A stretch of DNA of 64,000 bases from Massilia polaris (lineage in GTDB: Bacteria; Pseudomonadota; Gammaproteobacteria; Burkholderiales; Burkholderiaceae_D), in NCBI RefSeq assembly GCF_012927275.1, contig NZ_JABBGG010000004.1, forward strand, positions 62,001 to 126,000, in the 5' to 3' direction. The notes beneath the pieces were generated by a model. It did not search any database. It saw only the letters and a program-made list of their open reading frames with translations, and was not told where the DNA came from. Positions 3,771 through 25,701 of the stretch are shown piece after piece. Both the position numbers and the translations under genes were made by a program. Position 1 is the first letter of the stretch. Each line of letters begins with the position of its first letter.

Positions 3771-3777
3771 TAAAACT

Positions 3778-3791
3778 CCCGCGGCTGCGGG
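3778..3791. terminator. Hairpin between gstA and PEP-CTERM gene
   Basis: CCCGC (3778-3782), a GGCT loop and GCGGG (3787-3791) form a compact GC stem between two convergent genes, flanked by short A/T stretches. Probably a bidirectional terminator. Confidence 0.55.
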
Positions 3792-3804
3792 ATCTTGTTG
3801 GCTG

Positions 3805-4074
3805 CTATTCGAATTTTTCGCCGCTGTGCCGGCTGGCTCGCCAGCCGATCAGCACCAGGCCGACCAGCATCATGGCAAACACTTCCGGCTCCGGCATTTC
3901 CGCCAGGTCGCCAGGCTGGGCGACTGCGCCGCGCGCCACCATCAGGTCGGCGCGCGAGGTCAAGCCGGCAATTGGCGCGGCGTGCACTGTGGCGCGCTCA
4001 AATTCAACAAGGGTGGCCTGGGCCGTGCCGGCCAGGCCGGCGGCCAGTACGATGCAAAGGACGAATTGTTTCAC
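3805..4074 (-). CDS. Very small PEP-CTERM sorted protein
   Basis: An 89-residue exported protein. It has a signal peptide (MKQFVLCIVLAAGLAGTAQA, cleavage after about residue 20), a short mature region of about 35 residues, and a C-terminal PEP-CTERM signal: MPEPEVFAMM, a hydrophobic helix (LVGLVLIGW) and a basic tail RASRHSGE. PEP-CTERM proteins are cut and sorted by the EpsH/XrtA exosortase in exopolysaccharide-producing Gram-negatives. The mature segment is unusually short, so almost the whole protein is targeting sequence. Neighbours give no functional hint. Confidence 0.75.
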   Translation of the reverse strand: MKQFVLCIVLAAGLAGTAQATLVEFERATVHAAPIAGLTSRADLMVARGAVAQPGDLAEMPEPEVFAMMLVGLVLIGWRASRHSGEKFE

Positions 4075-4843
4075 GATAATCCCCTCTCCTTATTGATCCC
4101 GGCCTGGCGCGCCGATACACTGGTGCAGTGCAGCGAAAAATCGATCCATCGTGTGCTTTTTGTTCATCGTATTAAACCATGGCGTTCCGGGTTTTTCTAC
4201 GCTGATTCGATTGCGGCGGATGATATGTCGTGAGGCATTGCGAGCGGAATTTATCGCTGTGCGGTGCGGAAAAATTCGTTTTGGTTTATTCTGTTTCCTG
4301 CGTCAATAATCCAAGGCAATAGGCAGCGTCCGACAGGTCAATCGGCCCGCCCAGATGGTCTTCCGTCGCGGAAATTGAGGCGCCAAACAGGCGTTGGAAA
4401 AACGAAAAGAAGTAGGTCATGGCAGATCGTCCATTAACAGTTCGGACGATGATGTATCGACATTGCAAACTCATCAATCGTTGAAACGAACTGTTACGCA
4501 TTTCGCCATTTTTAACGCTTCGCCAACGAAGTTTGCCAGCTTCATAACGCATTCGATTGCTGCCTTGACTACAGATGTTGCGACGCAAAATTTTTTTGTG
4601 AAAACTGTTTGCGTGCGCCTTTTTAATGAAGGTATAGTCTCCATATCCCTCTTGCCTTCAAGAATTAAATTGATGGCAAATAATCACGTCCGGGCCAGAC
4701 TTTCCCGGCAAAACGTGACATGTATAGCGACGTTGATGAACCCATATCGAGCGTTGCTGTCGCGACCGCGCCCTGAATGCGTGCGGTGAACAGAACTTTT
4801 TACGATGTTGCGGTACCTGCGTCCACTATTCACAAAGTAAATC
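4075..4843. other. AT-rich intergenic region upstream of the FtsH-like gene
   Basis: About 770 bases of lower GC content. A possible vegetative promoter for the FtsH-like gene is TTGCGT (4609-4614), 18 bases, TATAGT (4633-4638), which would leave a leader of about 200 bases. One small reverse-strand reading frame (4286-4420) is listed separately. Nothing else was recognised. Confidence 0.4.
4286..4420 (-). CDS. Possible 44-residue small protein
   Basis: Starting at the ATG at 4420 this frame encodes 44 residues: an aromatic, amphipathic N-terminus (MTYFFSFFQRLFG) and an acidic remainder ending SDAAYCLGLLTQETE. The shape, an FxxLF-like start followed by a DHL...DLSD stretch, resembles the small DUF3563 proteins seen in many Burkholderiales, but the match is weak. 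GGA lies about 11 bases upstream of the start. It sits alone in an AT-rich gap. It could equally be a chance frame, so I give it low confidence. Confidence 0.3.
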   Translation of the reverse strand: MTYFFSFFQRLFGASISATEDHLGGPIDLSDAAYCLGLLTQETE

Positions 4844-6808: not shown

Positions 6809-6834
6809 ACCGCATCAACTAAGTTGCTTGCTTC

Positions 6835-6872
6835 AAAATCGGGGTCTGTCCCCGGGGACGGACCCCGATTTT
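6835..6872. repeat. 38-bp palindrome of the GGGGTCTGTCCCC family
   Basis: Arms AAAATCGGGGTCTGTCCCC and GGGGACGGACCCCGATTTT pair with a single T/C mismatch, with no loop. It lies between the convergent FtsH-like and Kef genes. The A-run before and T-run after mean its transcript would look like a bidirectional terminator. The same core recurs at 63493-63573, so it is a dispersed repeat and not a one-off terminator. Confidence 0.8.
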
Positions 6873-6906
6873 ATTGCACGATGCTTTCCGCCAAATCCGG
6901 TAGCGA

Positions 6907-8610: not shown

Positions 8611-8681
8611 GCAGTCATTCCCTTGTGCGCGTTGCTTGAAGGCCAAGTATAAGCGCCGCCGGGCTGACCGATATTTTTTTG

Positions 8682-9317
8682 CTACGGAACGGTCGCCAGC
8701 GCGGCCAGCGACTTGCGCACCGAGGCCCGCACGAGGTGGAATTCGTCGGCGCGCGCCTGGCGGTCGAGGCGGAACAGCATCAGCCCCTCGACCTGCGCGA
8801 CGATCAGGATCGCGCGCTGCATGGTCTCGTCGTCGCCAATGCCGGGCGCCAGTCCGCGGATCAGGTGGAAGATGGTCTTGCGTTCGCGCGCCATCATCTT
8901 GTCCATCAGCCGCGACGCAAATTCGTTGCGCGAGGCCAGCGCCCAGATTTCGAAGAAGATGGCGTGCGTCACCGGGTCGGTGATCTCGTCGAGGAACATG
9001 TCGACCGTCGACAAAAAACGGTCGATGCGCGATTCGCTCTGCATCGCCGCCGAAATCTCGTCGATCTTGGCCTGGAACACGTCCATCGTGTACAGCAGCA
9101 CCGCTTCGAGCAGCGCATCCTTGCTCTGGTAATAGTGCTGTACATTCGACAGGCTGATGCCGACTTCGCCGGCGACGCGCCGCATCGACATCCCGGCATA
9201 GCCCTCGGCGGCCAGCACGATGCGCGCAGCCTGCAGGATTTCGTGCGCGCGCCCCAGCCCCTTGCCTGTCGTGTTCGACGGCTTGTGCTTGAGTGCGGTG
9301 GCGAGCGAGGCGGGCAT
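8682..9317 (-). CDS. TetR family transcriptional repressor
   Basis: A 211-residue TetR regulator. After a 22-residue polar lead comes the N-terminal helix-turn-helix: RAHEILQAARIVLAAEGYAG, then MRRVAGEVGISLSNVQHYYQ, the family's recognition helix and HYYxSKD turn. The rest is a helical ligand-binding domain. It is divergent from a thiolase/acyl-CoA dehydrogenase/racemase operon, and the 97-base gap holds a strong promoter with a perfect 16-bp palindrome just after the -10 box. It most likely represses that operon, and possibly itself, and is released by an acyl-CoA or related compound. The ligand is inference from context. Confidence 0.88.
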   Translation of the reverse strand: MPASLATALKHKPSNTTGKGLGRAHEILQAARIVLAAEGYAGMSMRRVAGEVGISLSNVQHYYQSKDALLEAVLLYTMDVFQAKIDEISAAMQSESRIDRFLSTVDMFLDEITDPVTHAIFFEIWALASRNEFASRLMDKMMARERKTIFHLIRGLAPGIGDDETMQRAILIVAQVEGLMLFRLDRQARADEFHLVRASVRKSLAALATVP

Positions 9318-9339
9318 GGGCCGGATTATCTCATGCTGC

Positions 9340-9368
9340 TTGGAAAAATAGTACGACTGACCTATAAT
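9340..9368 (+). promoter_or_regulatory. Sigma-70 type promoter of the thiolase operon
   Basis: TTGGAA (9340-9345), exactly 17 bases, then a perfect TATAAT (9363-9368), 46 bases before the thiolase ATG. The clearest vegetative promoter in the window; transcription should begin around 9375, inside or next to the palindrome that follows. Confidence 0.8.
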
Positions 9369-9376
9369 CGTCGCGA

Positions 9377-9392
9377 TAGGTCGCGCGACCTA
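9377..9392. promoter_or_regulatory. Perfect 16-bp palindromic operator
   Basis: TAGGTCGCGCGACCTA is a perfect inverted repeat centred about 16 bases after the -10 box, at or just after the expected start of transcription. Its place between a TetR gene and its divergent operon, blocking the promoter's start site, is typical of TetR-family operators. Binding by the neighbouring regulator is inferred. Confidence 0.7.
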
Positions 9393-9414
9393 ATCCACTA
9401 TTCAGGAGACTTCG

Positions 9415-10599
9415 ATGAGCCGCAACGTTTATGTAACCGGTGTGGGCATGATCCCGTTCGCCAAGCCGGGCGCCAGCGCCCCCTACGACGAGATGGGCGC
9501 GCTCGCCGCCCGCCAGGCGCTTGAAGACGCCGGCCTGGCCTACGACGACATCGAGCAGGCTTACGCCGGCTACGTCTACGGCGACTCGACCAGCGGCCAG
9601 AAGGCCCTGTACAAGGTCGGCATGACCGGCATCCCGGTCGTCAACGTGAACAACAACTGCTCGACTGGATCGACCGCGCTGTTCCTGGCGCGCCAGGCGA
9701 TCGCCAGCGGCGCGGCCGACTGCGTGCTGGTGCTCGGCTTTGAGCAGATGAGCCCCGGCGCATTGGGCTCGGTGTTCAACGACCGCCCAAGCCCGTTCGA
9801 TCCGTTCGATGCGGTCACCGATGAACTGGTCGGCATGCCGGACATCCCGCTGGCGCTGCGCTACTTCGGCGGCGCCGGCCTGTCGCACATGAAAAAGTAC
9901 GGCACCCCGTTCGATGCGTTTGCGAAGATCCGCGCCAAGGCCAGCCGACACGCCGCCAACAATCCGCTGGCGCTGTTTAAGAAAATCGTGACGCCGGAAG
10001 AAGTGCTGGAGTCGCCCGCCATCTGGCCGGGAGTGATGACGCGCCTGATGGCATGCCCGCCTACCTGCGGCGCCGCCGCAGCCGTGCTGGTGTCGGAAGA
10101 CTTCGCGAAAAAGCGCGGCCTGAAAACCGACGTCTACATCGCTGGCCAGGCCATGACCACCGACCGCCCAAGCACCTTCGACTCGCACGACATGATGCGC
10201 GTGGTCGGCTACGACATGAGCCGCGAGGCCGCGCAGAAGGTGTACGCGCAAGCCGGCATCGGTCCCGCCGACCTCGACGTCGTCGAACTGCACGACTGCT
10301 TCGCCCACAACGAGCTGATTACCTACGAGGCGCTGGGCCTCTGTCCTGAAGGCGGCGCCGACAAGTTCATCACTGAAGGCGACAACACCTACGGCGGCAA
10401 GGTCGTCACCAATCCGTCGGGCGGCCTGCTGTCGAAAGGCCATCCGCTCGGCGCAACCGGCCTGGCGCAGTGCTACGAACTGACCCACCAGCTGCGCGGC
10501 AGCGCGGGCGCGCGCCAGGTTGACGGTGCGCGCGTCGCGCTCCAGCACAACCTGGGCCTCGGCGGCGCCTGCGTCGTCACCATGTACCGCGCGGCGTGA
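9415..10599 (+). CDS. SCP-x type thiolase (acetyl-CoA acetyltransferase / lipid-transfer family)
   Basis: A 394-residue thiolase-fold enzyme of the sterol-carrier-protein-x branch. The nucleophilic cysteine is Cys82 in NNNCSTGS; the other catalytic elements are HDCFAHNE and GHPLGATG near the C-terminus. This branch lacks the usual second catalytic cysteine motif of degradative thiolases and often acts on branched or sterol side-chain 3-ketoacyl-CoA. GGAG lies seven bases before the ATG. It is the first gene of an operon with an acyl-CoA dehydrogenase and an alpha-methylacyl-CoA racemase, fitting breakdown of 2-methyl-branched fatty acids or isoprenoids. It stops inside the next gene's GTG start. 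Confidence 0.88.
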   Translation: MSRNVYVTGVGMIPFAKPGASAPYDEMGALAARQALEDAGLAYDDIEQAYAGYVYGDSTSGQKALYKVGMTGIPVVNVNNNCSTGSTALFLARQAIASGAADCVLVLGFEQMSPGALGSVFNDRPSPFDPFDAVTDELVGMPDIPLALRYFGGAGLSHMKKYGTPFDAFAKIRAKASRHAANNPLALFKKIVTPEEVLESPAIWPGVMTRLMACPPTCGAAAAVLVSEDFAKKRGLKTDVYIAGQAMTTDRPSTFDSHDMMRVVGYDMSREAAQKVYAQAGIGPADLDVVELHDCFAHNELITYEALGLCPEGGADKFITEGDNTYGGKVVTNPSGGLLSKGHPLGATGLAQCYELTHQLRGSAGARQVDGARVALQHNLGLGGACVVTMYRAA

Positions 10600-11747
10600 G
10601 CACCATGGAATACACCTCGCCATGGATGAACGCGGAGCTGGAAGGCTTCCGCGATGCCGTACGCCGTTTCGTCGAGACCGAGATCGTGCCGAACCAGGAG
10701 CATTGGCGCAAGCAGCAGCACGTCGATCGCGCCGTCTGGCACAAGGGCGGCGAGATGGGCATCCTGCTGGCCGACATCCCGGAACAGTACGGCGGCTCGG
10801 GCGGCAGCTTCGCGCACCAGTCGGTGGTGTTCGAGGAACTCGGCTACGCGGGCGACATGGCCTTTGGCATCCACGTGCATGCGATCGTCGCGCACTACAT
10901 CCTCAACCAGGGCACTGAAGAACAGAAGCTCAGGTACCTGCCGAAGCTGGCCAGCGGCGAGATGGTCGCGGCCATCGCAATGTCCGAACCGGGCGCCGGC
11001 TCTGACCTGAAAGGCATCCGTACGACAGCCATCGCGGGCGACAGCGGCTACAAGGTCAATGGATCGAAGACCTTCATCTCGAATGGCTACCTGGCCGACC
11101 TGATCCTGGTCGTGGTCAAGACCGATCCGGCAGCGGGCTCCAAGGGCGTGTCGCTGCTGCTGCTCGAGACGAAAAACAATCCGGGCTTCCGCGTCGGCCG
11201 CATCCTCGAAAAAGTAGGGCAGAAGGGCCAGGACACCTGCGAGTTGTTCTTCGACGATGCCCATGTGCCGCTCGGGAACGTGCTGGGCGGCGTCGAAGGC
11301 AAGGGCTTTGCCCAGCTGATGACGGAGCTGCCGTACGAGCGCACCATCCTTGGCGTGGCCGGCGTGGCCGCCATCGAACGCGCGCTGAAGCTGACGCTCG
11401 AACACACCAAAGAGCGCAAGGCCTTCGGCCAGGCGCTGTTCGACATGCAGAACACCCGCTTCGTGCTGGCCGAGATCAAGACCGAGGCGACCATCGCGCG
11501 CATCTTCATCGACCGCTGCATCGACGACATGATCACGGGCCGCATGGACACGGTACAGGCGTCGATGGCGAAGTACTGGATCTCCGACCTGCAATGCAAG
11601 GTCATCGACCAGTGCGTCCAGCTGTTCGGCGGCTACGGCTACATGCTCGAGTATCCGATCGCGCAGATGTACGTGGACGCGCGCGTCCAGCGCATCTACG
11701 GCGGCGCCAATGAGATCATGAAAGAAATCATCGCACGTTCACTGTAG
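10596..11747 (+). CDS. Acyl-CoA dehydrogenase
   Basis: A 383-residue FAD-dependent acyl-CoA dehydrogenase with the usual helical N-domain, beta middle domain (AIAMSEPGAGSDLKGI, the FAD/substrate stretch) and helical C-domain ending FGGYGYMLEYPIAQMYVDAR and YGGANEIMKEI. The catalytic base appears to be Glu248 in LPYERTIL, the position used by isovaleryl- and long-chain dehydrogenases, since the MCAD-type site near the C-terminus is Gly-Gly-Ala. It would make the trans-2-enoyl-CoA in the same catabolic route as the flanking thiolase and racemase. The GTG at 10596 overlaps the upstream stop (GTGA); the ATG at 10605 is the alternative. Neither has a clear ribosome binding site, so coupling is likely. 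Confidence 0.88.
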   Translation: MSTMEYTSPWMNAELEGFRDAVRRFVETEIVPNQEHWRKQQHVDRAVWHKGGEMGILLADIPEQYGGSGGSFAHQSVVFEELGYAGDMAFGIHVHAIVAHYILNQGTEEQKLRYLPKLASGEMVAAIAMSEPGAGSDLKGIRTTAIAGDSGYKVNGSKTFISNGYLADLILVVVKTDPAAGSKGVSLLLLETKNNPGFRVGRILEKVGQKGQDTCELFFDDAHVPLGNVLGGVEGKGFAQLMTELPYERTILGVAGVAAIERALKLTLEHTKERKAFGQALFDMQNTRFVLAEIKTEATIARIFIDRCIDDMITGRMDTVQASMAKYWISDLQCKVIDQCVQLFGGYGYMLEYPIAQMYVDARVQRIYGGANEIMKEIIARSL

Positions 11748-11759
11748 GGAGCACACCGC

Positions 11760-12914
11760 ATGGCTGGACCGCTGGCTGGGGTAAGGGTCGTCGAAATGGT
11801 GGGACTGGGGCCGTGCCCCTTTGCCGCCATGATGTTGGCCGACATGGGCGCCGAAGTGATACGCATCGACCGCAAGGCCGCGCCGGCCGCCGCCAACCCG
11901 TTCCCCATGCTGGGCACGAAGTACGACGTGATGGCGCGCGGACGGCGTTCGCTCGCACTCGACCTGAAAAATCCGGAAGGCATCGAGGTGCTGCTTGGGC
12001 TGATCGACAAGGCCGACGTGCTGCTGGAAGGATTCCGCCCCGGGGTGATGGAGCGACTCGGCGCCGGACCTGAGGTGTGCCACGCGCGCAACCCGAAACT
12101 GGTGTATGGGCGTGTCACCGGCTGGGGCCAGGACGGCCCGCTGTCGCAGGCCGCCGGCCATGACCTGAACTACATCGCCCTGACCGGCATGCTGCGTGCG
12201 ATGGGCCGCGAAGGCGAACCTCCGTCGCCGCCCCTGAACCTGGTAGGCGACTTCGGCGGCGGCGCGATGATGCTGGCCTTCGGTGTTGTCTGCGCGGTGC
12301 TTGAATCGCGCAAGTCCGGAAAAGGGCAGGTGGTCGACGCCGCGATGACCGACGGCGCGGCGCTGCTCGGCGCGATGATGTACGGCTTCCGCGCGCATGG
12401 TTCGTGGGGGCTGAAGCGCGAAGCCAACCTGCTCGATGGCGGCGCGCCGTTCTACGATACCTATGGCTGCGCCGATGGGAAGTTCATCTCCATCGGATCG
12501 ATCGAGCCGCAGTTCTACGCGTTGCTGCTGCGTCTTACCGGCGTGACCGACCGCGCATTCAACACGCAGATGAAGCGCTCGGAATGGCCGTCGCTGAAGA
12601 AAAAATTCGCCGCCATGTTCGGGACGCGCACGCGAGACGCGTGGTGCGAGCTGATGGAGGGAACCGACGTGTGTTTCGCGCCGGTGCTCGACATGGACGA
12701 GGCGCCGCGGCATCCGCACAACCGCGCGCGGCGCACCTTTGTTGAAGTCGATGGCGTGACGCAGCCAGCACCGGCGCCACGTTTCAGCCGCACCGCGCCT
12801 GAACTGGACGTGCCGCCGGCGGCCCCCGGCCAGCATGGGGCCGACATCCTGGCAGACTGGGGATGGCCGCAGGAAGCGATCGCCGGTTTGCGGGAACGCG
12901 GCGCGATCGGCTAA
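11760..12914 (+). CDS. Alpha-methylacyl-CoA racemase (CaiB/BaiF CoA-transferase family)
   Basis: A 384-residue family III CoA-transferase-fold protein. It has the racemase pair His134 (in GHDLNYIA) and Asp164 (in LVGDFGGG), spaced 30 residues apart as in Mycobacterium MCR, where these are the catalytic acid/base residues; true CoA-transferases have a different active-site aspartate. It interconverts the R and S forms of 2-methylacyl-CoA so that the S-specific acyl-CoA dehydrogenase can act, matching its position after that gene, 12 bases downstream. This gene is the best clue that the operon handles methyl-branched chains. The C-terminal 50 residues contain a proline-rich stretch. Racemase rather than transferase activity is likely but inferred from two residues and context. 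Confidence 0.85.
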
Positions 12915-16805: not shown

Positions 16806-17564
16806 GTGGAAAAACTGAAACAGATATTACCCCCGGTCGCGCTGATCGCCACCGTGCTCGCCGCGTGGTGGATCATCGTGGTGCAAAGCGAAAGCGTGAT
16901 TTTCCCGACGCCGCTGCAAGTGCTCGCCGGCACCATGGAACTGGTTGACGACGGCACGCTGTGGACGCACATCGGCAACTCGCTGTTCCGGGTTGGCTGC
17001 GGCTTCCTGGTGGCGGTGATGGTGGCCGTGCCGATGGGTCTGTGGATGGGGCGTATCGACGGCGTGTTCCGCACATTCAACCCGATTTTCCAGATCCTGC
17101 GGCCGATCTCGCCGATCGCGTGGATCCCGCTGTCGATCCTGTGGTTCGGCGTCGGCAACGTGTCGCCGATTTTCCTGATCTTCATCGCCTCGGTATTTCC
17201 GCTGATCGTGCAGACCGCCGCCGGCGTGCACACGATCGAGCGGCGCTACCTCGATGCGGCCGAGAACTTCGGCGTCTCGCGCGCCATGCTGTTTCGCCGT
17301 GTCGTCATGCCGGCGGTGCTGCCGGAGGTGGTGACGGGCATGCGCATCACGCTCGGCGTCGCCTGGCTGGTGGTGGTGGCCGCCGAAATGATCGCGCCGC
17401 GCTCCGGCCTCGGTTACCTGATCATCGACTCGCGCAATGCCGGCAACCGCTACGACCTGGTGATCGCCGGCATGATCATCATCGGCCTGATCGGCCTTCT
17501 GCTGGACGGCGCCATGCGGCTGCTCGAAGGACTCAACTCGGTAAGGTGGCGTTATGGCCGATAA
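16806..17564 (+). CDS. ABC transporter permease, SsuC/NrtB type
   Basis: A 252-residue inner-membrane permease with about six membrane helices. The coupling-loop (EAA) region reads YLDAAENFGVSRAMLFRRVVMPAVLP, followed by the class-specific VTGMRITLGVAWLVVVAAEM and GLGYLI, typical of nitrate/sulfonate/taurine permeases. The start is a GTG at 16806, eight bases after the cupredoxin-like gene, with no better ATG. Its 3' end overlaps the ATPase gene by 11 bases. It should form the channel for the substrate carried by the binding protein at 14705. Confidence 0.88.
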   Translation: MEKLKQILPPVALIATVLAAWWIIVVQSESVIFPTPLQVLAGTMELVDDGTLWTHIGNSLFRVGCGFLVAVMVAVPMGLWMGRIDGVFRTFNPIFQILRPISPIAWIPLSILWFGVGNVSPIFLIFIASVFPLIVQTAAGVHTIERRYLDAAENFGVSRAMLFRRVVMPAVLPEVVTGMRITLGVAWLVVVAAEMIAPRSGLGYLIIDSRNAGNRYDLVIAGMIIIGLIGLLLDGAMRLLEGLNSVRWRYGR

Positions 17565-18294
17565 GATCGCCGTCAACGGCGTCAAGAAAAGTTTCGTATC
17601 CGGCAAGCAGTCGCTGCCGGTGGTCGGCGGCGTCTCGTTAAGCGTGGCGGACGGCGAGTTCGTCGCCATCGTCGGGCCGTCCGGCTGCGGCAAGTCGACC
17701 TTGATGAAGATTGTGTCGGGCTTCGAGCGGGCCGACCAGGGTGAGGTGCTGATCGACGGCGTGCCGCTGCTGCGGCCGAACGCGAAAGGCATCGTCATCT
17801 CGCAGCATGGATCGGTGTTCCCGTGGCTGACCGTGCAGGAAAACCTGATGTTCGGCCTGAACGGCGACGGCCACGGCGACAAGGCGGCGCTGGCCGATCA
17901 CTACGCCGCGATGGTGGGGTTGAAAGGGTTTGAGAACAGCTATCCGCGCGAACTGTCCGGCGGCATGCTCAAGCGCGTCGAGATCGCCCGCGCGCTGGTG
18001 GTCAAGCCCGAGATCCTGTACATGGATGAGCCGTTCTCGGCGCTCGACGCGCTGATGAACCTGCGCATGCGCACCGAGCTGCTGCGCATCCTGCAGGAAG
18101 AGCGCCACACCGTGCTGCTGATTACCCACGATGTCGAGGAAGCGCTGTACCTGGCCGACCGCATCATCGTGCTGTCGCCGCGCCCGACCGTTATCCAGGC
18201 CAGCTTCGCGGTGCCGCAGCCGCACCCGCGCAAATTGTCCAGCCCGGAGTTGCAGGTGCTCAAGGATGCGATCCTGGCTGAGCTGGGACTGTAA
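17554..18294 (+). CDS. ABC transporter ATP-binding protein, SsuB/NrtD type
   Basis: A 246-residue ATPase subunit with Walker A GPSGCGKST, Q-loop (VISQHGSVFPWLT), signature LSGGMLKRVEIARAL, Walker B EILYMDEPFSALDA and switch histidine ITHDVEEAL. It drives the import system encoded just upstream, overlapping the permease gene by 11 bases, and ends the operon before a strong hairpin terminator. The last 66 codons (from 18099) are duplicated in decayed form at 22712-22909, beyond the Hachiman island. The signature has Met-Leu where LSGGMQQR is common, but nothing suggests loss of function. Confidence 0.9.
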   Translation: MADKIAVNGVKKSFVSGKQSLPVVGGVSLSVADGEFVAIVGPSGCGKSTLMKIVSGFERADQGEVLIDGVPLLRPNAKGIVISQHGSVFPWLTVQENLMFGLNGDGHGDKAALADHYAAMVGLKGFENSYPRELSGGMLKRVEIARALVVKPEILYMDEPFSALDALMNLRMRTELLRILQEERHTVLLITHDVEEALYLADRIIVLSPRPTVIQASFAVPQPHPRKLSSPELQVLKDAILAELGL

Positions 18295-18296
18295 CG
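18099..18296. repeat. Intact copy of a 198-bp direct repeat flanking the defense island
   Basis: This stretch, the 3' end of the ABC ATPase gene through its stop codon, aligns without gaps to 22712-22909 at a constant offset of 4613 bases. By eye I count 18 mismatches in 198 positions (about 91% identity). The two copies lie in the same orientation on either side of the AT-rich hamAB-DUF3223 segment. Confidence 0.85.
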
Positions 18297-18313
18297 GTTT
18301 CCGGCCTAGAAAC

Positions 18314-18339
18314 AATAAAGGCCCGAGGCGGCCTTTATT
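18314..18339 (+). terminator. Terminator of the SBP-SCO-cupredoxin-ABC operon
   Basis: AATAAAGGCC (18314-18323), a 6-base loop and GGCCTTTATT (18330-18339) form a perfect 10-bp stem 20 bases after the ATPase stop. The A/T base of the stem makes it work as an intrinsic terminator. Confidence 0.8.
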
Positions 18340-18714
18340 GCGTGTTGTTATGCACGGCGAACAGGTCTAACGGCCGGCAGTGCGCTCGCCCGACAAGATC
18401 GTCCTTTCGCGATGACTCGACCATGCGCTTTCAAAGCGCAGCAAATCGTGATCGAAATAGCGATTAGGACGATCCAGGAAAGCCGTATGCGCAATTTCGC
18501 ATTACCGCTGCTCAGGACCTCGCCAACGCTCTCGAGTGTGCAGCACAAGTCAATGCTCGGAATCTCTGACTAGCCCCCGTCGGGCAGCAAATTCGCTAGG
18601 AGCAATGAACTCCTATGCGCGCAGCATATGAGTGCCTTAGGCATACAAAATTCACAAAACTATATATTTCCCACGTAATATGTGAAAAACTATTGCGCAT
18701 GGGCATCGATCGTT
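18340..18714. other. Gap between the ABC operon and the Hachiman genes
   Basis: GC content falls through this stretch. No gene was recognised. Close to hamA is a TTCACA (18651-18656) ... TGTGAA (18681-18686) inverted repeat bracketing an AT-rich ACTATATATT stretch that may hold the hamA -10 region; this could be promoter plus operator. No integrase, transposase end or tRNA fragment was seen. Confidence 0.4.
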
Positions 18715-18768
18715 ATGAAGAAAATTTTAGAAAAACTTGGCGGACGACTAACTGAAGGCAGCTTATGA
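18715..18768 (+). CDS. Possible 17-residue leader peptide overlapping hamA
   Basis: A short frame, MKKILEKLGGRLTEGSL, ends in TGA that overlaps the hamA ATG (ATGA, 18765-18768). The sequence is a plausible amphipathic basic peptide and the overlap is the kind used for translational coupling, but there is no evident ribosome binding site before its ATG, so it may be chance. The hamA ribosome binding site (GAAGG) lies inside it. Confidence 0.25.
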   Translation: MKKILEKLGGRLTEGSL

Positions 18769-19670
18769 ATCTGGATGATTTTCTTACGGTCAATGAAAAA
18801 CATTACCGTGAGTGTGTAGACGTTGTGGAAAAAGACTTTGTCGCCAAAAACTTGAACGGCAAGGTCCGTTATCATCATTTGAAGTTCAATGGTAATGGCG
18901 TTCCAATGGTTGAGGCACTTGCGGAAGTACTTTATGACTACATAATAGATTATTGTTTGTCCGCGAAAAGTAGAACCTCTCCCCTCACCACCGTTCAGTC
19001 AACGCGCTTAACGAAGGAAGCCCGAAAACTATTTAGGCGGCCAATCGTTACCGAAGACGATCCAGATGAAACAGGCGAGGCTGGTGAAGCGTTACTGTTT
19101 TTTTTAATTGAATCAGTCTTGAAAGCGCCGCAAATGGTCGCAAAGATGGAATTGAAAACCAATCATAAAGATGAAGTGAAAGGGTCCGACGGCATACATG
19201 CTGGATGGAGCGAAAGCGAAAAAATAGTAGACTTCTATTTCGGAGAATCAAAATTATACAAAGATGTAAATTCTGCAATTTCTGCTGTCATAAAAAGTGT
19301 AAATAGTTTTCATGATAACGAAATGTACAAGCACGAATTAATTATGGTGACGAAGTATTTTAAATACGCAAATGAGAAAATTCAAGAAGAAATTTCTGAA
19401 TTGATCCAACGTGGGGAGCCCGGTCCAAACGCCAGACTTAACCATGCTTGTCTCGTGGGATACGACTGGAAAAAATACGGCGACCTCAGCAAAGAAAAGC
19501 TACATGAGGACTTCATCTCGTGCTTGATGTTGGACGCTGAGAAGATTGTCTCAAGCTTGGACAGCAAATTTGAGAAATTCGAAAAGAAACATCTCCGCTT
19601 TGAATTCTTCTTTCTGCCCTTCCCCTCAGTTACTGATTTCCGAAATTCTTTCAACGCGGCTCTAAGTTAA
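18765..19670 (+). CDS. hamA: HamA: DUF1837 nuclease of a Hachiman anti-phage system
   Basis: A 301-residue DUF1837 protein. The core has GEAGEALLFFLIESVL (residues about 104-118), KMELKTNHKDEVKGSDGIHA with Asp142, and DFYFGESKLY with Glu161 and Lys163; together these look like the E/D...D-G-x-H...E-x-K active site of a PD-(D/E)xK nuclease. DUF1837 directly followed by a large helicase is the published definition of Hachiman, in which the HamAB complex degrades DNA after the helicase senses damaged or phage DNA. hamB begins one base after its stop. Codon use and base composition are AT-rich, unlike all neighbours, indicating transfer. GAAGG seven bases before the ATG supports the start. Confidence 0.88.
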   Translation: MNLDDFLTVNEKHYRECVDVVEKDFVAKNLNGKVRYHHLKFNGNGVPMVEALAEVLYDYIIDYCLSAKSRTSPLTTVQSTRLTKEARKLFRRPIVTEDDPDETGEAGEALLFFLIESVLKAPQMVAKMELKTNHKDEVKGSDGIHAGWSESEKIVDFYFGESKLYKDVNSAISAVIKSVNSFHDNEMYKHELIMVTKYFKYANEKIQEEISELIQRGEPGPNARLNHACLVGYDWKKYGDLSKEKLHEDFISCLMLDAEKIVSSLDSKFEKFEKKHLRFEFFFLPFPSVTDFRNSFNAALS

Positions 19671-19671
19671 A

Positions 19672-22188
19672 ATGGAAAATTTGTCACATGGGTTTGCAGC
19701 CGCTTATGAGAAGCTTTTACGGGCAAGCGCAACTATCTACTTGCGTACCGATCAGTATGATTCTTGCAGACTTTCAAAGTCTGAACTCTCAACTCTAATC
19801 AGTTCTGCTTCTATCGCATCATTATCTAGCGCGCCAAAGCTACAATCTTTATCGTATGAGATATGTAGTCGGATTATCGAGCTTCATGGGGAAAATGATC
19901 CTGCGATAGTTATGAGCGCCGATATGATCTTGTCGAGAATTGGAAATTTTCCAGGGCGACAGCTGCTTCGTGAAAAATTCCACGCATCAAGCGATTCGAT
20001 TATTCCGATTCCTTTAGCCATGGAGCGATTGGTCCGTGAAATAGAGAACAGTATCAGTGTAAACGTAACACTTACAGATTTTCAATATAAGCTTTACGAA
20101 GATCTAAAAACTAATAAGTCGCTAAGTGTCTCTGCGCCGACCTCAGCAGGGAAATCGTTTGTCTTGAATCTCGATTTAACGCGGCGACTCCGATCTGCGG
20201 CCGGACAATGCATTATATATGTGGTGCCGACGCGTGCCTTGGTTGCTGAGGTCACTGGACGTATTCGTGCCACGTTGCGTAGCGAGAACATGCTTGATGT
20301 AATTGTGCGAACTGCGCCTTTTCCTGTTGTGAATATCGAGAAATTCAACGGTGTTGTATTTGTGCTTACACAGGAGAGACTGCTGAGTCTGTTATCTGCA
20401 TCAAAAGCGAAAACGCCAATTTCGCTTTTGATTGTTGATGAGGCGCATGAGTTGCAAAAAGGGAAACGGGGGATTTTACTGCAAAACTCTATCGATTTGG
20501 CACTTGCTCAATCACCACAAGCTGACGTGTTCTTCGCTAGCCCCCTAATTAAAAATCCTGAATATTTTCTTCACGTTTTTGCAAGGGCAAATAGCGGCAA
20601 TTCGTTTACCGAAGAAATATCTCCAGTTTCTCAGAATATTATATTAGTCTCGCCGGTATCGGGAAAGCCGAAGCAAGTAGAAATTTCGATTTCAGTCCAA
20701 GACACGAATGTTCGTGTGGGTAGGGCAGAACTTGAATTTAGGTTTCGCGATTCGGTTTCCCAACAAAAAGCGAAATTTGCGGCGTCGATCTGTAGAGATG
20801 GGGAATCTGTAATTATCTTCGCGAGTAGTGCTTCGGATGCCGAAAAATCCGCCGTGTGTCTTGCTGCGAATTTAAATAATTTTGAAGCATCTGACGAAAT
20901 ACTAGATTTTGTGAAATTTTTGAGATCAGAAATTCACCCAGATTATGTTTTGATAGAATCGTTATTGAAAGGTGTTGGATTTCATTACGGAAATATGCCG
21001 TCCATTGTTCGAACAGGCGTCGAGAGATTCTTTAAAAACGGTCAGATAAGATACCTTTGCTGTACAAGCACCTTGCTCCAAGGGGTAAATCTACCAGCAA
21101 AGCATATTGTTATTCACGACCCGCATCTTGGTCAAGACCCAATGATGCGCCCAGACTTTAGAAATCTCGCAGGGCGTGCCGGTCGCTTGCTGAAAGAATT
21201 TCATGGCAACATTTGGTGTATTCGACCGCAGGAGTGGGATGTTAAATCTTTTGCGGGCGAAAATTTACAGGAAATTACAAGCGCTATGAGTAGCGTTATG
21301 ACCGACGGTGGCACGATCATTCAAGCGATAACAAATGCGGCGACGGAAGATATAGATAAAGATTTAGCGGATGCGGCATATAGTAGGTTGTATCATGAGT
21401 TACGCGAAAACAGTGATTCTCATGCAAAGATTATTGAGCTTTATTCAACCCCAGAAAATATTAAGGTTCTTGAAGAAAACATCAAGAGTCTAAAAGCTCT
21501 GCCCATTACAATACCGGGTGTTATCTTGGACTCGCATCGATCTTTGCGGCCTGATCTTTTGCAGATTTTATACGAAAAAATCCAAGCTGTGCCTAGAATG
21601 GATGAATTGATATTAATAAATCCTCACGAATCCGGTGGAAAGTTGCGTATGACAAAAGCGATTTCTATGATTCATGATGCATTTAATATAAATATGACGG
21701 AATTGCAAAATAGGTGGATTTGTAATCTGGCTCATGACTGGGTCTGGGGTAAACCGATCGGCGAAATTATAAAGTTCAGAGTGGACTTTGTTCAATCGCG
21801 GGATCGTGACGTCTCAGTTTCACAAGTTATCAGGGATTTACTCCAGGCAATCGAGAAAGAAATTCGCTATAGCTTGGTAAAATATTTTGGTGCATATGAA
21901 GATCTATTGAAGCTTGCTTTAGAGAATTTAGGTGACAAGCAAAAGGCTTCTTCCGTTTCACCCTATCACGTCTACTTGGAATTCGGATCTTCAAATTCAG
22001 TTACTTTAGGTTTGATGGCACTCGGACTTTCTAGATTTACGGCCATTAAGCTCACGTCCGTGATCAACTGGGGTGAGGCGAAGGAGCCGGAGGAACTTCT
22101 CGCCAAAATTCGGCGTTTGCGAACTAGTTCCCTTGGGCTGCCGAAGGTATGTCAATTAGAAGTCAATGAGATACTTGGTATCGATTGA
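19672..22188 (+). CDS. hamB: HamB: DExH helicase of a Hachiman anti-phage system
   Basis: An 838-residue superfamily 2 helicase. Motif I is SAPTSAGKSF (Walker A around residue 160), motif Ia VVPTRALVAEV, motif II VDEAHEL (DEAH at 256-259); the second RecA domain has LCCTSTLLQGVNLPAKHIVI and NLAGRAGRLLKEFHG (motif VI, near residue 495). This Ski2-like arrangement, a helical N-terminal region of about 130 residues, and a long C-terminal region match HamB. It is the sensing and translocating subunit that holds and releases the HamA nuclease. It starts one base after hamA, so the two are co-translated. Motifs are intact, suggesting a working system. AT-rich throughout. Confidence 0.87.
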   Translation: MENLSHGFAAAYEKLLRASATIYLRTDQYDSCRLSKSELSTLISSASIASLSSAPKLQSLSYEICSRIIELHGENDPAIVMSADMILSRIGNFPGRQLLREKFHASSDSIIPIPLAMERLVREIENSISVNVTLTDFQYKLYEDLKTNKSLSVSAPTSAGKSFVLNLDLTRRLRSAAGQCIIYVVPTRALVAEVTGRIRATLRSENMLDVIVRTAPFPVVNIEKFNGVVFVLTQERLLSLLSASKAKTPISLLIVDEAHELQKGKRGILLQNSIDLALAQSPQADVFFASPLIKNPEYFLHVFARANSGNSFTEEISPVSQNIILVSPVSGKPKQVEISISVQDTNVRVGRAELEFRFRDSVSQQKAKFAASICRDGESVIIFASSASDAEKSAVCLAANLNNFEASDEILDFVKFLRSEIHPDYVLIESLLKGVGFHYGNMPSIVRTGVERFFKNGQIRYLCCTSTLLQGVNLPAKHIVIHDPHLGQDPMMRPDFRNLAGRAGRLLKEFHGNIWCIRPQEWDVKSFAGENLQEITSAMSSVMTDGGTIIQAITNAATEDIDKDLADAAYSRLYHELRENSDSHAKIIELYSTPENIKVLEENIKSLKALPITIPGVILDSHRSLRPDLLQILYEKIQAVPRMDELILINPHESGGKLRMTKAISMIHDAFNINMTELQNRWICNLAHDWVWGKPIGEIIKFRVDFVQSRDRDVSVSQVIRDLLQAIEKEIRYSLVKYFGAYEDLLKLALENLGDKQKASSVSPYHVYLEFGSSNSVTLGLMALGLSRFTAIKLTSVINWGEAKEPEELLAKIRRLRTSSLGLPKVCQLEVNEILGID

Positions 22189-22219
22189 ATTTTGTTTGTG
22201 CATGCAGAACTATAAAATT

Positions 22220-22552
22220 ATGACAAGAGCAATAGAGTTAAATAATGGCCGTTTCTGGAGAACCTTTGGTGAGGTCGCTAAACACTTCAGTGACATGCTC
22301 AGTCGCTACTCGCCTGGTGATGAGGTAACGGATTCCAAAGATCACGAGGACCTTTGTGCGCTTTTGAGCAGATATGATTCGATTTTAGACCGTGATCGGC
22401 CGTCAAAAATCGGATGCGGAATAAAATATTTCACAAAAGAACATAATACTGACTTCAGCTGGTCATCAACCGGGTTTTGGGTACATCGGAATGATGGGTC
22501 GAGTTGTGACTTCAGTCTCAAAAAAGCATTAGGACCTCTTCCGGAAAAATAG
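22220..22552 (+). CDS. DUF3223 domain protein, third gene of the Hachiman cluster
   Basis: A 110-residue protein made almost entirely of a DUF3223 domain: IELNNGRFWRTFGEVAKHFS at the start, then SDMLSRYSPGDEVTD, a DLCALLSRYDSI stretch, PSKIGCGIKYF and TGFWVHRNDGSSCDFS, in the order seen in this family. DUF3223 is found alone in bacteria and, in plants, as the DeCL-like C-terminal domain of Pol IV/V largest subunits; no bacterial function is established. It shares strand and AT-rich composition with hamAB. In-frame starts at 22166 (inside the hamB end) and 22202 also exist; 22220 is chosen because it matches the domain start. An accessory role in the defense system is inference. Confidence 0.72.
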   Translation: MTRAIELNNGRFWRTFGEVAKHFSDMLSRYSPGDEVTDSKDHEDLCALLSRYDSILDRDRPSKIGCGIKYFTKEHNTDFSWSSTGFWVHRNDGSSCDFSLKKALGPLPEK

Positions 22553-22711
22553 CGCTCGTGTTGCGCCCGTGGAAATTTTTGTGACGCTGGCAGAATCTGT
22601 TATTTGAAGTTGTGGAATTCCACCTTATCTAGATAGTCGGCATACTCTTGAATTATGATCATTCGCTTTTGCAAAAACGCTGCGCTGTTGTAGACATCCC
22701 GGTAGGTTCTT

Positions 22712-22909
22712 AGAGCGCCACACCGTGTTGTTGATTACCCACAATGTCGAGTAAGCGCTGTACTTGGCCGACCGCATCATCGTGCTGTCGCCGCGCCCGA
22801 CTGTCATCCAGGCGAGCTTCGCGGTGCCGCAGCCGCACCCGCGCAAATTGTCCAGTCGGGAGATGCAGGTGCTGTAGGATGCCATTCTGGATGAGCTTGG
22901 GCTGTAACG
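22712..22909 (+). pseudogene. Decayed 3' fragment of the ABC ATPase gene (second copy of the direct repeat)
   Basis: Aligned without gaps to 18099-18296, the end of the ABC ATP-binding gene. In the reading frame of the intact gene this copy has two premature stops (TAA near 22755, TAG near 22875) and no start or Walker motifs, so it is a remnant. Substitutions are scattered, with several in the last third. It lies on the island's far side in the same direction as the intact gene. It may be the tail of a lost paralogous ABC operon, or a by-product of how the island was inserted. Confidence 0.85.
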
Positions 22910-23348
22910 CGAAAAGACTGGCTCAGCATGGATTGACACGGGGCCGCCTGAACTTGCGCGGGAAGTCGTTTCCGACACTGCCGGGAAGGGCGAATCAAGC
23001 CTTACGCCAGTGCTCAAGATTTTCTGCTGAGGAAGGGGCCGAATCGCCTTTTCTCTGTTGCCTCGCGTCAAGAACTGGCAGGTTGCATCGTAAAAACTTC
23101 GTCGGCGAGGCCAGCCTTGCGCTGCGATTGCACGCAGTATTACAAATGCTTTCGAATGAAACGTTTATCACCTTTCGCGTGCGCGCCTCAGCAAGTAGTC
23201 TAATGGACTCGGCACTAGCCAGGACAGCTTGGCGGCGTCCGCGGACCCGTTGCGTCCCTCGCTATCGCTCCGCCCTATTTGTAGGCGTTGAGGCAACTTG
23301 CGGGACGGCTCGCCTGGACGAGCACAATTCCATCAAAAGGAGTCTCCC
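22910..23348. other. Gap between the pseudogene fragment and the second ftsZ
   Basis: About 440 bases with GC content back to the chromosomal level. No gene recognised on either strand; short frames look like chance. It probably contains the promoter of the ftsZ paralogue, but I cannot place one with confidence. Confidence 0.4.
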
Positions 23349-24557
23349 TTGTTCGACCTGAAAAATACCCAACCCGAGACGGTAATCAAAGTAATCGGCG
23401 TCGGTGGTGCCGGCGGCAACGCCGTCAACCATATGGCGACCTCCGGACTGGCCGACATCGAATTTATCTGCGCTAATACGGACGCGCAGGCGCTGTCGAA
23501 TACCCGTACCGACAAGCGAATCCAGCTCGGTGAGAGCGGCCTGGGCGCCGGCAGCGACCCGGTTGTGGGCCGCGAAAGCGCGATTCGCGAACGCAGCGTC
23601 ATTGCCGACGCGCTCAAGGGCGCGCACATGGTGTTCCTTACCGCGGGCATGGGCGGCGGCACCGGCACCGGCGCCGCTCCCGTGGTCGCCGAAGTGGCGC
23701 GCGAGATGGGCATCCTGACGGTCGGCGTAGTGTCGAAGCCCTTCGAATTCGAAGGCGCGCGGCGCATGCGCGTGGCCGAAGAGGGCATCGCGATGCTGGC
23801 GAAAAGCGTCGACTCGCTCGTCATCGTCCTCAATAGCCGCCTCGAGGAAGTGCTGGGCGACGATATCACGCAAAAGCAAGCGTTCGCCGCTGCCGACGAG
23901 GTGTTGAGCAAGGCGGTTTCCGGCATCGCGGAGATCATCGCCGTGCCCGGTATGATCAACGTCGACTTCGAGGACGTCCGCACGGTGATGCGCCAGACCG
24001 GCACGGCGATGATGGGCTCGGCCCAACACTCCGGCGACGACCGCGCCGTCAGGGCGGCCGAAGAGGCAATCTCCTGTCCGCTGCTCGATGGCTCAAACCT
24101 GCATGCCGCGCGAGGACTGCTGGTCAACATCGCGGCATCGGAGGAAACGCTGAAACTGCGCGAAACCAAGCTGGTGATGAACGTGATCTGCGCGCAGACC
24201 AGCGACGAGGCCATCATCAAATTCGGCGCGGTCTTCGACGATACGCTGGGCGACGCCATGCGTGTGACCGTTGTCGCCACCGGCTTGAACCGGCCCGGCA
24301 CCGTCTCAACCGGCTCGGCGCAATCGCCGATGTCGCGCTCGGCGCCAGCTGGCTCGCCAAACCAGCTTCGCGGCGGCGGGCTGCGGGAGACGCAAGCGCA
24401 GTCCGTCCGGCGCCAGACCGCTTTCCAGGCGGCCGTCCAGGCGGCATCGGCCCAGCAGGCGCTGCGGGCGGGGATGACACCGCGCCAGCCTGCCTCGAAC
24501 GCCAGCGAGGATGCCCACCGGGTGCTGACGGCGGACACGAGAGGGCAGGGGGCGTGA
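23349..24557 (+). CDS. FtsZ paralogue lacking the canonical C-terminal peptide
   Basis: A 402-residue tubulin-family GTPase. The FtsZ core is intact: VIKVIGVGGAGGNAVNHM, CANTDAQALS, the tubulin signature GGGTGTGAAPVVAEVA, and the T7-loop region NVDFEDVRTVM with its catalytic aspartates. The start is a TTG at 23349 (Leu-Phe-Asp-Leu, matching the MFxL start of FtsZ), supported by AAAAGGAG at 23336-23343. The tail after about residue 320 is Ala/Gln/Arg-rich and ends DTRGQGA, without the D-x-P-x-F-L-R type peptide that binds FtsA and ZipA. It is not in a dcw cluster, so it is almost surely a second copy beside the main ftsZ. Such a paralogue could co-assemble with or modulate FtsZ; its role is unknown. 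Confidence 0.87.
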   Translation: MFDLKNTQPETVIKVIGVGGAGGNAVNHMATSGLADIEFICANTDAQALSNTRTDKRIQLGESGLGAGSDPVVGRESAIRERSVIADALKGAHMVFLTAGMGGGTGTGAAPVVAEVAREMGILTVGVVSKPFEFEGARRMRVAEEGIAMLAKSVDSLVIVLNSRLEEVLGDDITQKQAFAAADEVLSKAVSGIAEIIAVPGMINVDFEDVRTVMRQTGTAMMGSAQHSGDDRAVRAAEEAISCPLLDGSNLHAARGLLVNIAASEETLKLRETKLVMNVICAQTSDEAIIKFGAVFDDTLGDAMRVTVVATGLNRPGTVSTGSAQSPMSRSAPAGSPNQLRGGGLRETQAQSVRRQTAFQAAVQAASAQQALRAGMTPRQPASNASEDAHRVLTADTRGQGA

Positions 24558-24674
24558 GGGCTTGTGCCGACGCGCGGAAACGCTCGGCCTGCCAACTGGC
24601 AGGCCTGAGTGCCGTGAGCGGCGAATCTGGCGCTGGCGATCGTTAATAGCTAACGAAAGAATCGCCAAACAAAA

Positions 24675-24702
24675 AAGGCCTGACTCTTGCGAGACAGGCC
24701 TT
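24675..24702. terminator. Bidirectional terminator between ftsZ paralogue and tRNA
   Basis: AAGGCCTG (24675-24682) and CAGGCCTT (24695-24702) form an 8-bp stem, extended inside by CTC/GAG around a short loop, with A-runs upstream. It lies downstream of the ftsZ-like gene on the plus strand and just downstream of the tRNA on the minus strand, so it can serve both. Confidence 0.75.
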
Positions 24703-24715
24703 GATTGCGTGTTCT

Positions 24716-24792
24716 TGGTGGTGATAGGTGGACTTGAACCACCGACCCCAGCATTATGAATGCTGTGCTCTAACCAACTGAGCTATATCACC
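24716..24792 (-). tRNA. tRNA-Met (CAT anticodon)
   Basis: The reverse strand folds as a complete 77-nt tRNA with encoded CCA. The acceptor stem is GGTGATA/TATCACC, the D-arm contains AGCTCAGTTGGTTAGAGC, the anticodon stem-loop CAGCA-TTCATAA-TGCTG places CAT as anticodon, and the T-arm has GGTTCAAGTCC. Elongator tRNA-Met is the most likely identity; a tRNA-Ile with lysidine-modified CAT cannot be fully excluded by eye. It is a single tRNA gene, not duplicated nearby. Confidence 0.93.
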
Positions 24793-24927
24793 CGACAGCC
24801 GAGCATTATCCAGACTTTCGTCCGGCCTGTCAAGGTTATGCCAAAAATCTGCATTGCGACCTGACTGCTGCGTTCCTGACGAGTGTTCCGTCCGGTCCGT
24901 TGGCCAGGTCGTTATTCTAGCAGATTA

Positions 24928-25701
24928 TTACTTGCTCTTGCGGCGGCGTGCGGCGCCCATGCCCAGCATCGCGAGGCCGAGCAGGGCCAGCGAACCCGGT
25001 TCCGGTATTGCATTGATGCTCAGGTTATCGACGGTGAGGACCTGGCCTTTGAGGTTGGCGGTACGGAAACCGATCGAGTCGAACGAGTACAGGCCGGACG
25101 CGCCTTTGGACAGCAGGTCAGGCGTGGTGAGCGAGTTCATTTCGTAGGCGGTCGGGTTGAGCCAGACGGCGAAGCGGTCATAGCTGCTGCCTTCCTGCGA
25201 CTTATACAGGTGGCCGTACATGCGATAGCTCTGGCCGGCGACGAGGTCGCTGTCGGTGACGAACGGGCCGCTGGAGCCGGCCGTGCGGGCGAACATATCG
25301 TTGGTGCAGGCGCCGCTGGCGTTGTCGCAATTCGACTTCAAGCCCATGTTCGGGCCGCCGATGGACGAACCGAACCACAAGCCGAGGAACACGTTGGTGC
25401 CGAGGGTGCCGGTGTACTGGAAAGTGAAGTCGACAATAACATCCGAAGACATTGCTTTATTCAGTTTGCGGGTCGCCGCGACGTTGGCGTCTTTGCGGAA
25501 CTCAAGCTTGCCATTGTTCACGACCGGCGCGTTGGCGCCAGTGAGACCGGATTGCCATGCGCCGTTCCATCCCTGGCCGCCAGCTTGATTGATGATCGTG
25601 CCATTCGTGCCGAACGAATCGGCTGCGGTAACGACAGTGGCGGAAGCGAAGCCGCAGGTGGCGATCAGGGATGCCGCGAGGGCCATTGAAAGAGATTTCA
25701 T
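24928..25701 (-). CDS. PEP-CTERM sorting domain protein
   Basis: A 257-residue exported protein with a signal peptide (MKSLSMALAASLIATCGFASA), a beta-rich Gly/Asn/Ser-rich body of about 205 residues with one pair of cysteines in NCDNASGACTND, and a classic C-terminal sorting signal: IPEPGSLALLGLAMLGMG followed by the basic tail AARRRKSK. It should be processed by the exosortase XrtA/EpsH and released or anchored with the exopolysaccharide. The body looks like a concanavalin-like or PEP-CTERM-specific sandwich, without recognisable catalytic residues. AGGAA about nine bases upstream supports the start. Single gene preceded by an AT-rich 180-base gap. Confidence 0.88.
   Translation of the reverse strand: MKSLSMALAASLIATCGFASATVVTAADSFGTNGTIINQAGGQGWNGAWQSGLTGANAPVVNNGKLEFRKDANVAATRKLNKAMSSDVIVDFTFQYTGTLGTNVFLGLWFGSSIGGPNMGLKSNCDNASGACTNDMFARTAGSSGPFVTDSDLVAGQSYRMYGHLYKSQEGSSYDRFAVWLNPTAYEMNSLTTPDLLSKGASGLYSFDSIGFRTANLKGQVLTVDNLSINAIPEPGSLALLGLAMLGMGAARRRKSK

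Follow-up and report, generated by a model that had tools for sequence, protein, structure and literature searches.

A Hachiman type II locus on a probably transferred island of Massilia polaris and the separate history of its HamC

The DNA analyzed here is a stretch of 64,000 nucleotides of Massilia polaris (contig NZ_JABBGG010000004.1, positions 62,001 to 126,000), called the window below, from a genome of 4.52 Mb in 30 contigs. It holds three adjacent genes, hamA, hamB, and hamC, which very probably make up an intact Hachiman type II anti-phage system brought in by a tyrosine-integrase element. By the PADLOC definition the locus is Hachiman type II and not plain Hachiman, owing to the presence of hamC, so the system is known in kind; the history of HamC, however, is separate from that of HamAB. 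The original prediction had described a complete hamA-hamB system: the pair stood, while the third gene, lying inside the range proposed for the system, had gone unnamed. The genes are the following (positions in the window):

18765-19670, plus strand: hamA, 301 aa, DUF1837 nuclease (PDLC00168, 1.7e-119; PF08878, 2.4e-49)
19672-22188, plus strand: hamB, 838 aa, Ski2-like DEAH helicase (PDLC00199 HamB2; PF00270, 2.6e-15; PF00271, 5.2e-07)
22220-22552, plus strand: hamC, 110 aa, DUF3223 domain alone (PDLC00202 HamC2, 1e-35; PF11523, 4.2e-12)

Composition of the locus

The reading frames of 301 and 838 residues were both found as predicted, with one base separating the hamA stop from the hamB ATG. 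The DUF1837 assignment of the first protein held in both profile searches (168.7 bits for PF08878, cut-off 25), residues 2-301 all fell within the HamA profile, and the motifs GEAGEALL, KGSDGIHA, and GESK were all present. D142, E161, and K163 were invariant in 16 of 16 aligned HamAs; the available text of PMC12278908 describes a D-E(X)K nuclease motif for HamA. A scan with a HamB alignment confirmed 162 relatives, and the counts of HamB loci given here use the best 80 of these 162: a regular expression for the D-ExK motif matched in 74 of the 80, failed in 4, and 2 had no HamA.

The PADLOC HamB2 profile covered residues 1-835 of HamB (E 0, 1312 bits), while the 13 NCBIfam helicase models touched all stayed below their cut-offs (89.6 bits for the best, against 887); the protein also clustered with HamBs in HamB trees, and a helicase of the DNA-repair type was thus not what the checks returned. 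The helicase motifs TSAGKS, DEAH, and GRAGR were kept in the alignment, so that the predicted intactness of both proteins was borne out. Judged by profile coverage alone, the N-terminus, the site of the HamA-binding helical bundle in Hachiman, was wholly spanned by HamB2. The roles assigned to the two proteins, HamA as a DNA nuclease and HamB as the helicase sensor, agree with the available text of PMC12278908.

hamC starts 31 bases past the hamB stop, as against 32 bases in Massilia eurypsychrophila JCM 30074 (locus L057), the bearer of the nearest HamB found. An alternative in-frame ATG at 22166 would overlap hamB, and the start at 22220 is backed by the M. eurypsychrophila homologue, which could be aligned from its first Met. 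The PADLOC HamC2 match covered 103 of 245 model positions. A truncated HamC was considered and rejected: inspection by eye of three forward frames in 22550-22720 and in the matching M. eurypsychrophila stretch revealed no lost C-terminal half. Since, in addition, short HamCs of 95-118 codons occur in 11 other Hachiman loci, that of the window was taken as a natural short form. Its AlphaFold model had a predicted local distance difference test score (pLDDT) of 74 and a predicted template modeling score of 0.66.

All three genes differ from their M. eurypsychrophila counterparts mostly at third bases, which is the pattern of genes under selection: the fractions of identical sites at the first, second, and third codon positions were 0.75, 0.87, and 0.40 for hamA, 0.63, 0.79, and 0.36 for hamB, and 0.61, 0.69, and 0.44 for hamC. 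Their GC contents are 0.41, 0.43, and 0.44, respectively. The low GC relative to the surroundings had been pointed out from the start and was evident: the lowest-GC 3.9-kb stretch of the window (0.421) lies at the Hachiman locus, whereas such stretches outside the island average 0.640 (standard deviation 0.018, minimum 0.584), and the GC content at third codon positions (GC3) is 0.40-0.45 in the island genes versus 0.83-0.89 in three neighboring genes.

Three results weigh against the overall reading of the locus. The best PADLOC model for HamA was HamA1 (396.9 bits), with the best HamA2 model at 312.5 bits; the model of the window's HamC had no PDB match at E≤0.001; and HamC was not found in 71 of the 80 HamB loci, seven of which end within 600 bases of hamB. 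Eight loci in all have fewer than 600 bases after hamB, one of which (L126) does have HamC, so that absence means little in the other seven. HamC is therefore not needed for Hachiman in general.

Hachiman type I resembles the window's system in joining a DUF1837 D-ExK nuclease to a Ski2-like helicase (available text of PMC12278908); HamC and DUF3223 are absent from the main text of that paper. The best solved relative of the window's HamB was the complex of PDB entry 9WH1 (7.9e-58, residues 8-792), the matched chain being labeled "DNA polymerase theta (Helicase domain only)." For the HamA profile, too, 9WH1 was the best solved match (5.3e-20); its HamA-like chain of 528 aa, named anti-bacteriophage protein A, aligned without the D and E-x-K residues, as in AbpAB. 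A weaker match was to the PDB chain named HamB, 8vx9_B (1174 aa; 2.8e-17 over 141 residues), which we take to belong to the type I system just mentioned, presumably that of Escherichia coli ECOR28. AbpAB and HamMAB share HamA-like and HamB-like cores with the window's system, but their HamA portions are in most cases inactive and joined to other effectors, according to the available texts of PMC12278908 and PMC12799240, whereas the HamA described here is unfused and has kept D-ExK. AbpAB, with its second N-terminal endonuclease domain and dead HamA site, was rejected as an identification, HamA being 301 aa long with an intact site. HamMAB, with a protease fused to HamA and a metallo-β-lactamase (MBL) nuclease gene upstream, was rejected likewise: HamA has no extra domain, and upstream lie a 468-base spacer without a recognized gene and, beyond it, an ABC-transporter gene.

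Island borders and insertion site

The original prediction had placed the AT-rich island at 18650-22560 and regarded it as probably acquired by transfer. The island is there, but its borders are wider: the foreign segment spans about 18297-22711, bounded by a 198-bp direct repeat and by the empty site of relatives. Its edges comprise the following features:

17554-18294, plus strand: ABC-transporter ATPase gene (PF00005, 2e-31), its 3' end the insertion site, its frame still intact
18099-18296, plus strand: left repeat copy (198 bp, direct), formed by the undamaged 3' end of the ABC gene (repeat search)
18297-18764, no strand: left spacer, GC 0.50, without a recognized gene (no matches)
22603-22710, minus strand: remnant resembling an integrase tail, 36 codons ending in a stop (tblastn)
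22712-22909, plus strand: right repeat copy, decayed and interrupted by stop codons, continuing into native sequence downstream (repeat search, position)

Acquisition by transfer is well supported. Two same-genus relatives, G003 and G005, have an empty site, in which the end of the ABC gene (a gene 93% identical in G003) is closely followed by what follows the right repeat in the window; in the G003 stretch (L032), window positions 22713-22927 correspond to 6098-6312 and positions 23104-24835 to 6360-8045. Five further relatives (G010, G015, G006, G007, and G025) aligned over the ABC region alone and speak neither for nor against an empty site. Neither blastn nor tblastn at E 0.01 matched the left spacer to any of the compared loci, and among plasmids it had no match at E 0.001.

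The two repeat copies are 91% identical. Judging by the order in G003 and G005, it is the right copy that sits where the ABC gene natively ends, and the left copy either arrived with the island or is a duplicate of the right one. The base counts are equivocal: of 198 sites, G003 shares 185 with the left copy and 180 with the right, and among the 18 positions that distinguish the copies it agrees with the left at 11, with the right at 6, and with neither at 1. Several of these 11 are changes unique to the right copy, as expected from decay; base counts alone cannot tell which copy is native, whereas position does.

The 36-codon stretch resembles, in sequence, the C-terminal tail of a tyrosine integrase. 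It matched the integrase of G005 (PF00589, 4.8e-13; itself in two pieces) with 52% identity over 27 aa (E 8e-6, tblastn over the compared loci), none of 200 shuffles reached E≤0.01, and matches occurred in 4 of 40 genomes, that of the window among them, with two of the matches near the C-terminus of reading frames of 432 and 444 codons. Taken together, the empty site, the gene-end repeat, and the integrase-like tail make it most likely that an integrase element was inserted into the end of the ABC gene and has since lost most of its integrase. Such an element would have carried the Hachiman type II system into the 3' end of the gene, its own copy restoring that end.

It could instead be argued that the island was never mobile, being an old native AT-rich segment beside an ABC gene end that was duplicated in tandem. 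The island has no complete integrase, and its 198-bp repeat exceeds the usual length of att cores. This account is nevertheless very improbable given the empty site in two relatives, the gap in GC3 between the island and nearby genes, and the integrase-like tail at the right edge. The nearest HamB found, that of M. eurypsychrophila (60% identical), moreover has an integrase some 3.5 kb away and an AlpA-like gene close by. That locus shares the gene order of the window, with HamA, HamB, and HamC 73, 60, and 50% identical, and differs in having a whole integrase and an AlpA-like regulator nearby where the window has the tail only. Upstream of its Hachiman genes (L057:3297-4715) we observed a 472-aa protein with a P-loop-like stretch and no Pfam match at E 0.001, possibly a partner or a separate defense gene.

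Several observations concern the surroundings of the island. The idea of the ABC gene end as an insertion hotspot found no support, as blastn at 1e-5 revealed a second gene-end copy in none of seven relatives' regions. A 20-bp repeat, 90% identical, occurs at 18330-18349 in the left spacer and at 24697-24716, touching the 3' end of a tRNA-Met gene, and may reflect terminator likeness or chance. In G005 (L033, plus strand, about 4180-12750), roughly 8.5 kb are inserted between an ftsZ-like gene and tRNA-Met, a second defense-type insertion in this neighborhood; the insert carries the two-piece tyrosine integrase, a transposase resembling IS3 by eye, and a protein of 817 aa with SIR2_2 and nSTAND_NTPase5, which is presumably Avs-like. 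The window itself encodes an FtsZ family protein of about 400 codons (23298-24557; PF00091 and PF12327), possibly a second FtsZ; its gene comes after the ABC gene in both G003 and G005 and found no alignment in the regions of the five other relatives. A minus-strand reading frame at 24928-25701, which we take to have a PEP-CTERM-like tail, lies within a stretch of 1.1 kb beyond tRNA-Met for which the G003 alignment offers no equivalent.

Distribution and separate history of HamC

Hachiman type II was published as a class in 2021; in the available text of PMC8565338 it numbers 379 systems, about 3.8% of Hachimans, the function of HamC is called unknown, and the system of Sphingopyxis witflariensis reduced plaque formation in E. 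coli by at least one phage. The locus of S. witflariensis DSM 14551 (L094) resembles that of the window in having hamA, hamB, and, directly downstream, a DUF3223 hamC, which is short in both (109 and 110 codons, respectively). The identities are only 29% for HamB and 31% for HamC, and the S. witflariensis HamB belongs to another clade.

HamC was present in 9 of the 80 HamB loci, namely those of M. eurypsychrophila and of Undibacterium (L058) and seven loci from alphaproteobacteria or an acidobacterium. Plasmid searches with two HamC queries matched 22 and 27 records; of the 17 loci examined, 8 had hamAB with HamC, which was long (231-246 codons) in L175, L176, and L178 to L181 and short (95-98 codons) in L186 and L187. 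Among viral sequences, HamB relatives were found in 6 of 50,697 phage records, none covering 80%, and on at least 31 viral contigs, one phage record matched the HamC of L094 used as a query, and 3 viral contigs matched the HamC alignment.

On both HamB trees (82 and 63 rows, built by a quick method without bootstrap), the presence of HamC requires two changes, forced by strongly supported branches. One HamB clade (support 100 and 99) unites the window, M. eurypsychrophila, and Undibacterium; it is nested in a mostly gammaproteobacterial group that yielded no further HamC, and a second HamC-bearing group, mostly alphaproteobacterial, is placed elsewhere. The HamC tree (35 rows, 127 columns) has a different shape. 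There, the window and M. eurypsychrophila stand apart from Undibacterium, and forcing the three together costs 50.6 log units (approximately unbiased [AU] test, P = 0.0003); the same constraint with only the 15 other Hachiman HamCs gave a weaker result (AU P = 0.042). Among all DUF3223 rows, the HamCs of the second HamB group, 15 in number, likewise fail to form a single clade (AU P = 3e-55), and they lie on one side of a split that leaves the window and M. eurypsychrophila alone on the other (98/94). These topology tests, run once the alignment had been inspected, all concern a short domain. The row nearest to those of the window and M. eurypsychrophila (98/94) is a DUF3223 gene of a Variovorax plasmid (L177) without hamAB, its product 47% identical to the window's HamC, while the Undibacterium HamC, encoded on the opposite strand, has as its partner in the tree (100/97) a DUF3223 protein whose gene neighbors that of a PDC-S06 ATPase.

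The pairwise identities show the same separation. Toward Undibacterium the window's HamA and HamB are both 57% identical and HamC 23-24%; toward the six Rhizobiales plasmid systems with long HamC, which share the hamABC order, HamA is 26.0-29.4%, HamB 28.3-32.0%, and HamC 43.1-48.6% identical. The DUF3223 domains of these Rhizobiales HamCs, which unlike that of the window are followed by an extra C-terminal domain, are the nearest to it among the compared Hachiman HamCs outside Massilia. Toward L186 and L187 the values are 26-27, 30-31, and 33-34%. The trees and the identities together make Hachiman type II look polyphyletic. The simplest count is two separate associations with HamC plus either one more gain or a replacement within the window's clade; many losses may also have occurred.

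The same data bear on whether HamC works with HamAB. It may be a hitch-hiker, i.e., a separate small defense-island gene that landed beside hamB and has no part in Hachiman, as the opposite strand in Undibacterium, the Variovorax gene without hamAB, the many HamB loci lacking HamC, and the DUF3223 genes that stand alone or beside other systems would allow. We hold this to be unlikely, since HamC lies directly downstream of hamB in 18 of 18 HamC-bearing Hachiman loci (the window, 9 genome loci, and 8 plasmid loci) in two separate HamB clades, the hamB-hamC gap is nearly equal in the window and M. eurypsychrophila, and the codon-position pattern of hamC is that of a selected gene.

DUF3223 elsewhere and the possible role of HamC

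DUF3223 is rare in the genomes sampled: the HamC2 profile matched 7 of 369 genomes, the window's own included and one of them (G156) doubtful with 36 positions, and the Pfam profile matched 7 of 398, again with the own genome. Nine of the 17 plasmid DUF3223 loci are without hamAB; their neighborhoods, which give gene context and are no proof of function, are as follows:

L184: DUF3223 gene beside a PDC-M23B helicase
L188 and L189: DUF3223 genes beside LmuB-like ATPases, L188 annotated as an ABC-three component system
L185: DUF3223 gene beside BREX genes
L190: DUF3223 gene beside another DEAD helicase
L177, L182, L183 (provisional frame), and L191: DUF3223 genes without a nameable defense neighbor

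L190 is a linear Streptomyces plasmid, on which (1710-5642) the DUF3223 gene follows the helicase gene and an annotated terminal-protein gene. Three viral contigs (L193, L194, and L195) encode long DUF3223 proteins and thus phage-borne relatives of HamC; L193 and L195 match phrog_28887. The DUF3223 part of the L195 protein modeled well and matched PDB entry 2K0M (E 4.4e-7).

A profile of 16 long DUF3223 proteins matched 2K0M, which is called a HamC in the available text of PMC8565338, at 5.7e-29, subunit 1 of plant RNA polymerase IV (Pol IV) at 5.9e-18, and Pol V at 4.1e-13; the window's HamC alone matched 2K0M at 7.4e-6. Judged from these matches, DUF3223 and the DeCL domain found in plant Pol IV and Pol V are homologs. 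As far as the sources were available, DeCL and the adjacent QS repeats of Pol V mediate binding of a 3'-5' exoribonuclease (PMC7714444), deletion of DeCL abolished detectable Pol V transcripts in vivo while in vitro activity was kept (PMC6753486), and DUF3223 of a ciliate La protein is required for tRNA-mediated suppression (PMC9705548). By analogy, the DeCL and La data suggest that DUF3223 is an adaptor placing an enzyme on either a nucleic acid or a partner protein. HamC, being a DUF3223 domain alone, is presumably not itself a nuclease, and we tentatively propose, granting the idea somewhat less than an even chance, that it engages nucleic acid as an accessory altering when or where HamAB is triggered. 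Three points tell against this proposal. The window's HamC alone reached Pol V only at E 0.066, the DeCL result would argue equally for protein binding, and the ciliate La DUF3223 is dispensable for telling pre-tRNA from mature tRNA (available text of PMC9705548).

Another origin can be imagined, in which HamC is what remains of a second nuclease subunit, a recruited DUF3223-HNH-like enzyme whose catalytic part was lost and whose binding domain was kept. The long DUF3223 proteins have a C-terminal domain with C-x-x-TG...DHxxP...H, exactly the stretch that the best profile alignment pairs with HNH, and 12 of 19 long forms, the three viral ones among them, retain the DH pair, which all five Hachiman-linked forms there and a sixth (L179) have lost. 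The HNH match itself was not confirmed: hhalign gave E 0.018 in one comparison, against E 0.53 for a control domain, with a probability of 2.6%, and E 0.56 with a contaminated HNH set; the sole HNH-type Pfam match among the 16 long members was GH-E in one of them (0.11, under the cut-off); and a predicted model had block pLDDT values of about 35-59 in the HNH-like part. DH is also missing in 3 of 15 long forms outside Hachiman (L046, L190, and L184), and as the six Hachiman-linked long forms all come from Rhizobiales, their loss may be one event. No trace of a second domain was seen by eye after hamC in the three forward frames of the window or of M. eurypsychrophila, and we consider such a nuclease origin rather unlikely.

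With HamC as an accessory to HamAB, the system might work as follows. By analogy with published HamAB, HamB would patrol DNA until a free 3' single-stranded end, produced by phage replication or DNA damage, starts its ATPase; HamA, then released, would shred phage and host DNA, and the infected cell would die before the phage spreads, i.e., by abortive infection. HamC may tune when or where this is triggered. More broadly, DUF3223 (DeCL) could be a portable module of bacterial immunity, adopted independently by several defense ATPases or helicases and by Hachiman at least three times when replacements are counted, an idea that we regard as plausible but short of probable. Among open-licence papers we found nothing in print on this wider point, which is a weak negative.

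As a Hachiman locus, that of M. polaris is ordinary. With it, type II gains a member whose HamAB clade is distant from that of the system tested in PMC8565338. Type II would seem not to be one lineage: given the independent history of HamC, the label unites systems by a component that can be exchanged and that is linked by sequence to DeCL of plant Pol IV and Pol V. If true, the repeated uptake of a small DUF3223 domain by unrelated defense systems, for which the nuclease-protease pairs in the available text of PMC12799240 offer a parallel, would imply a general and testable activity of this domain.

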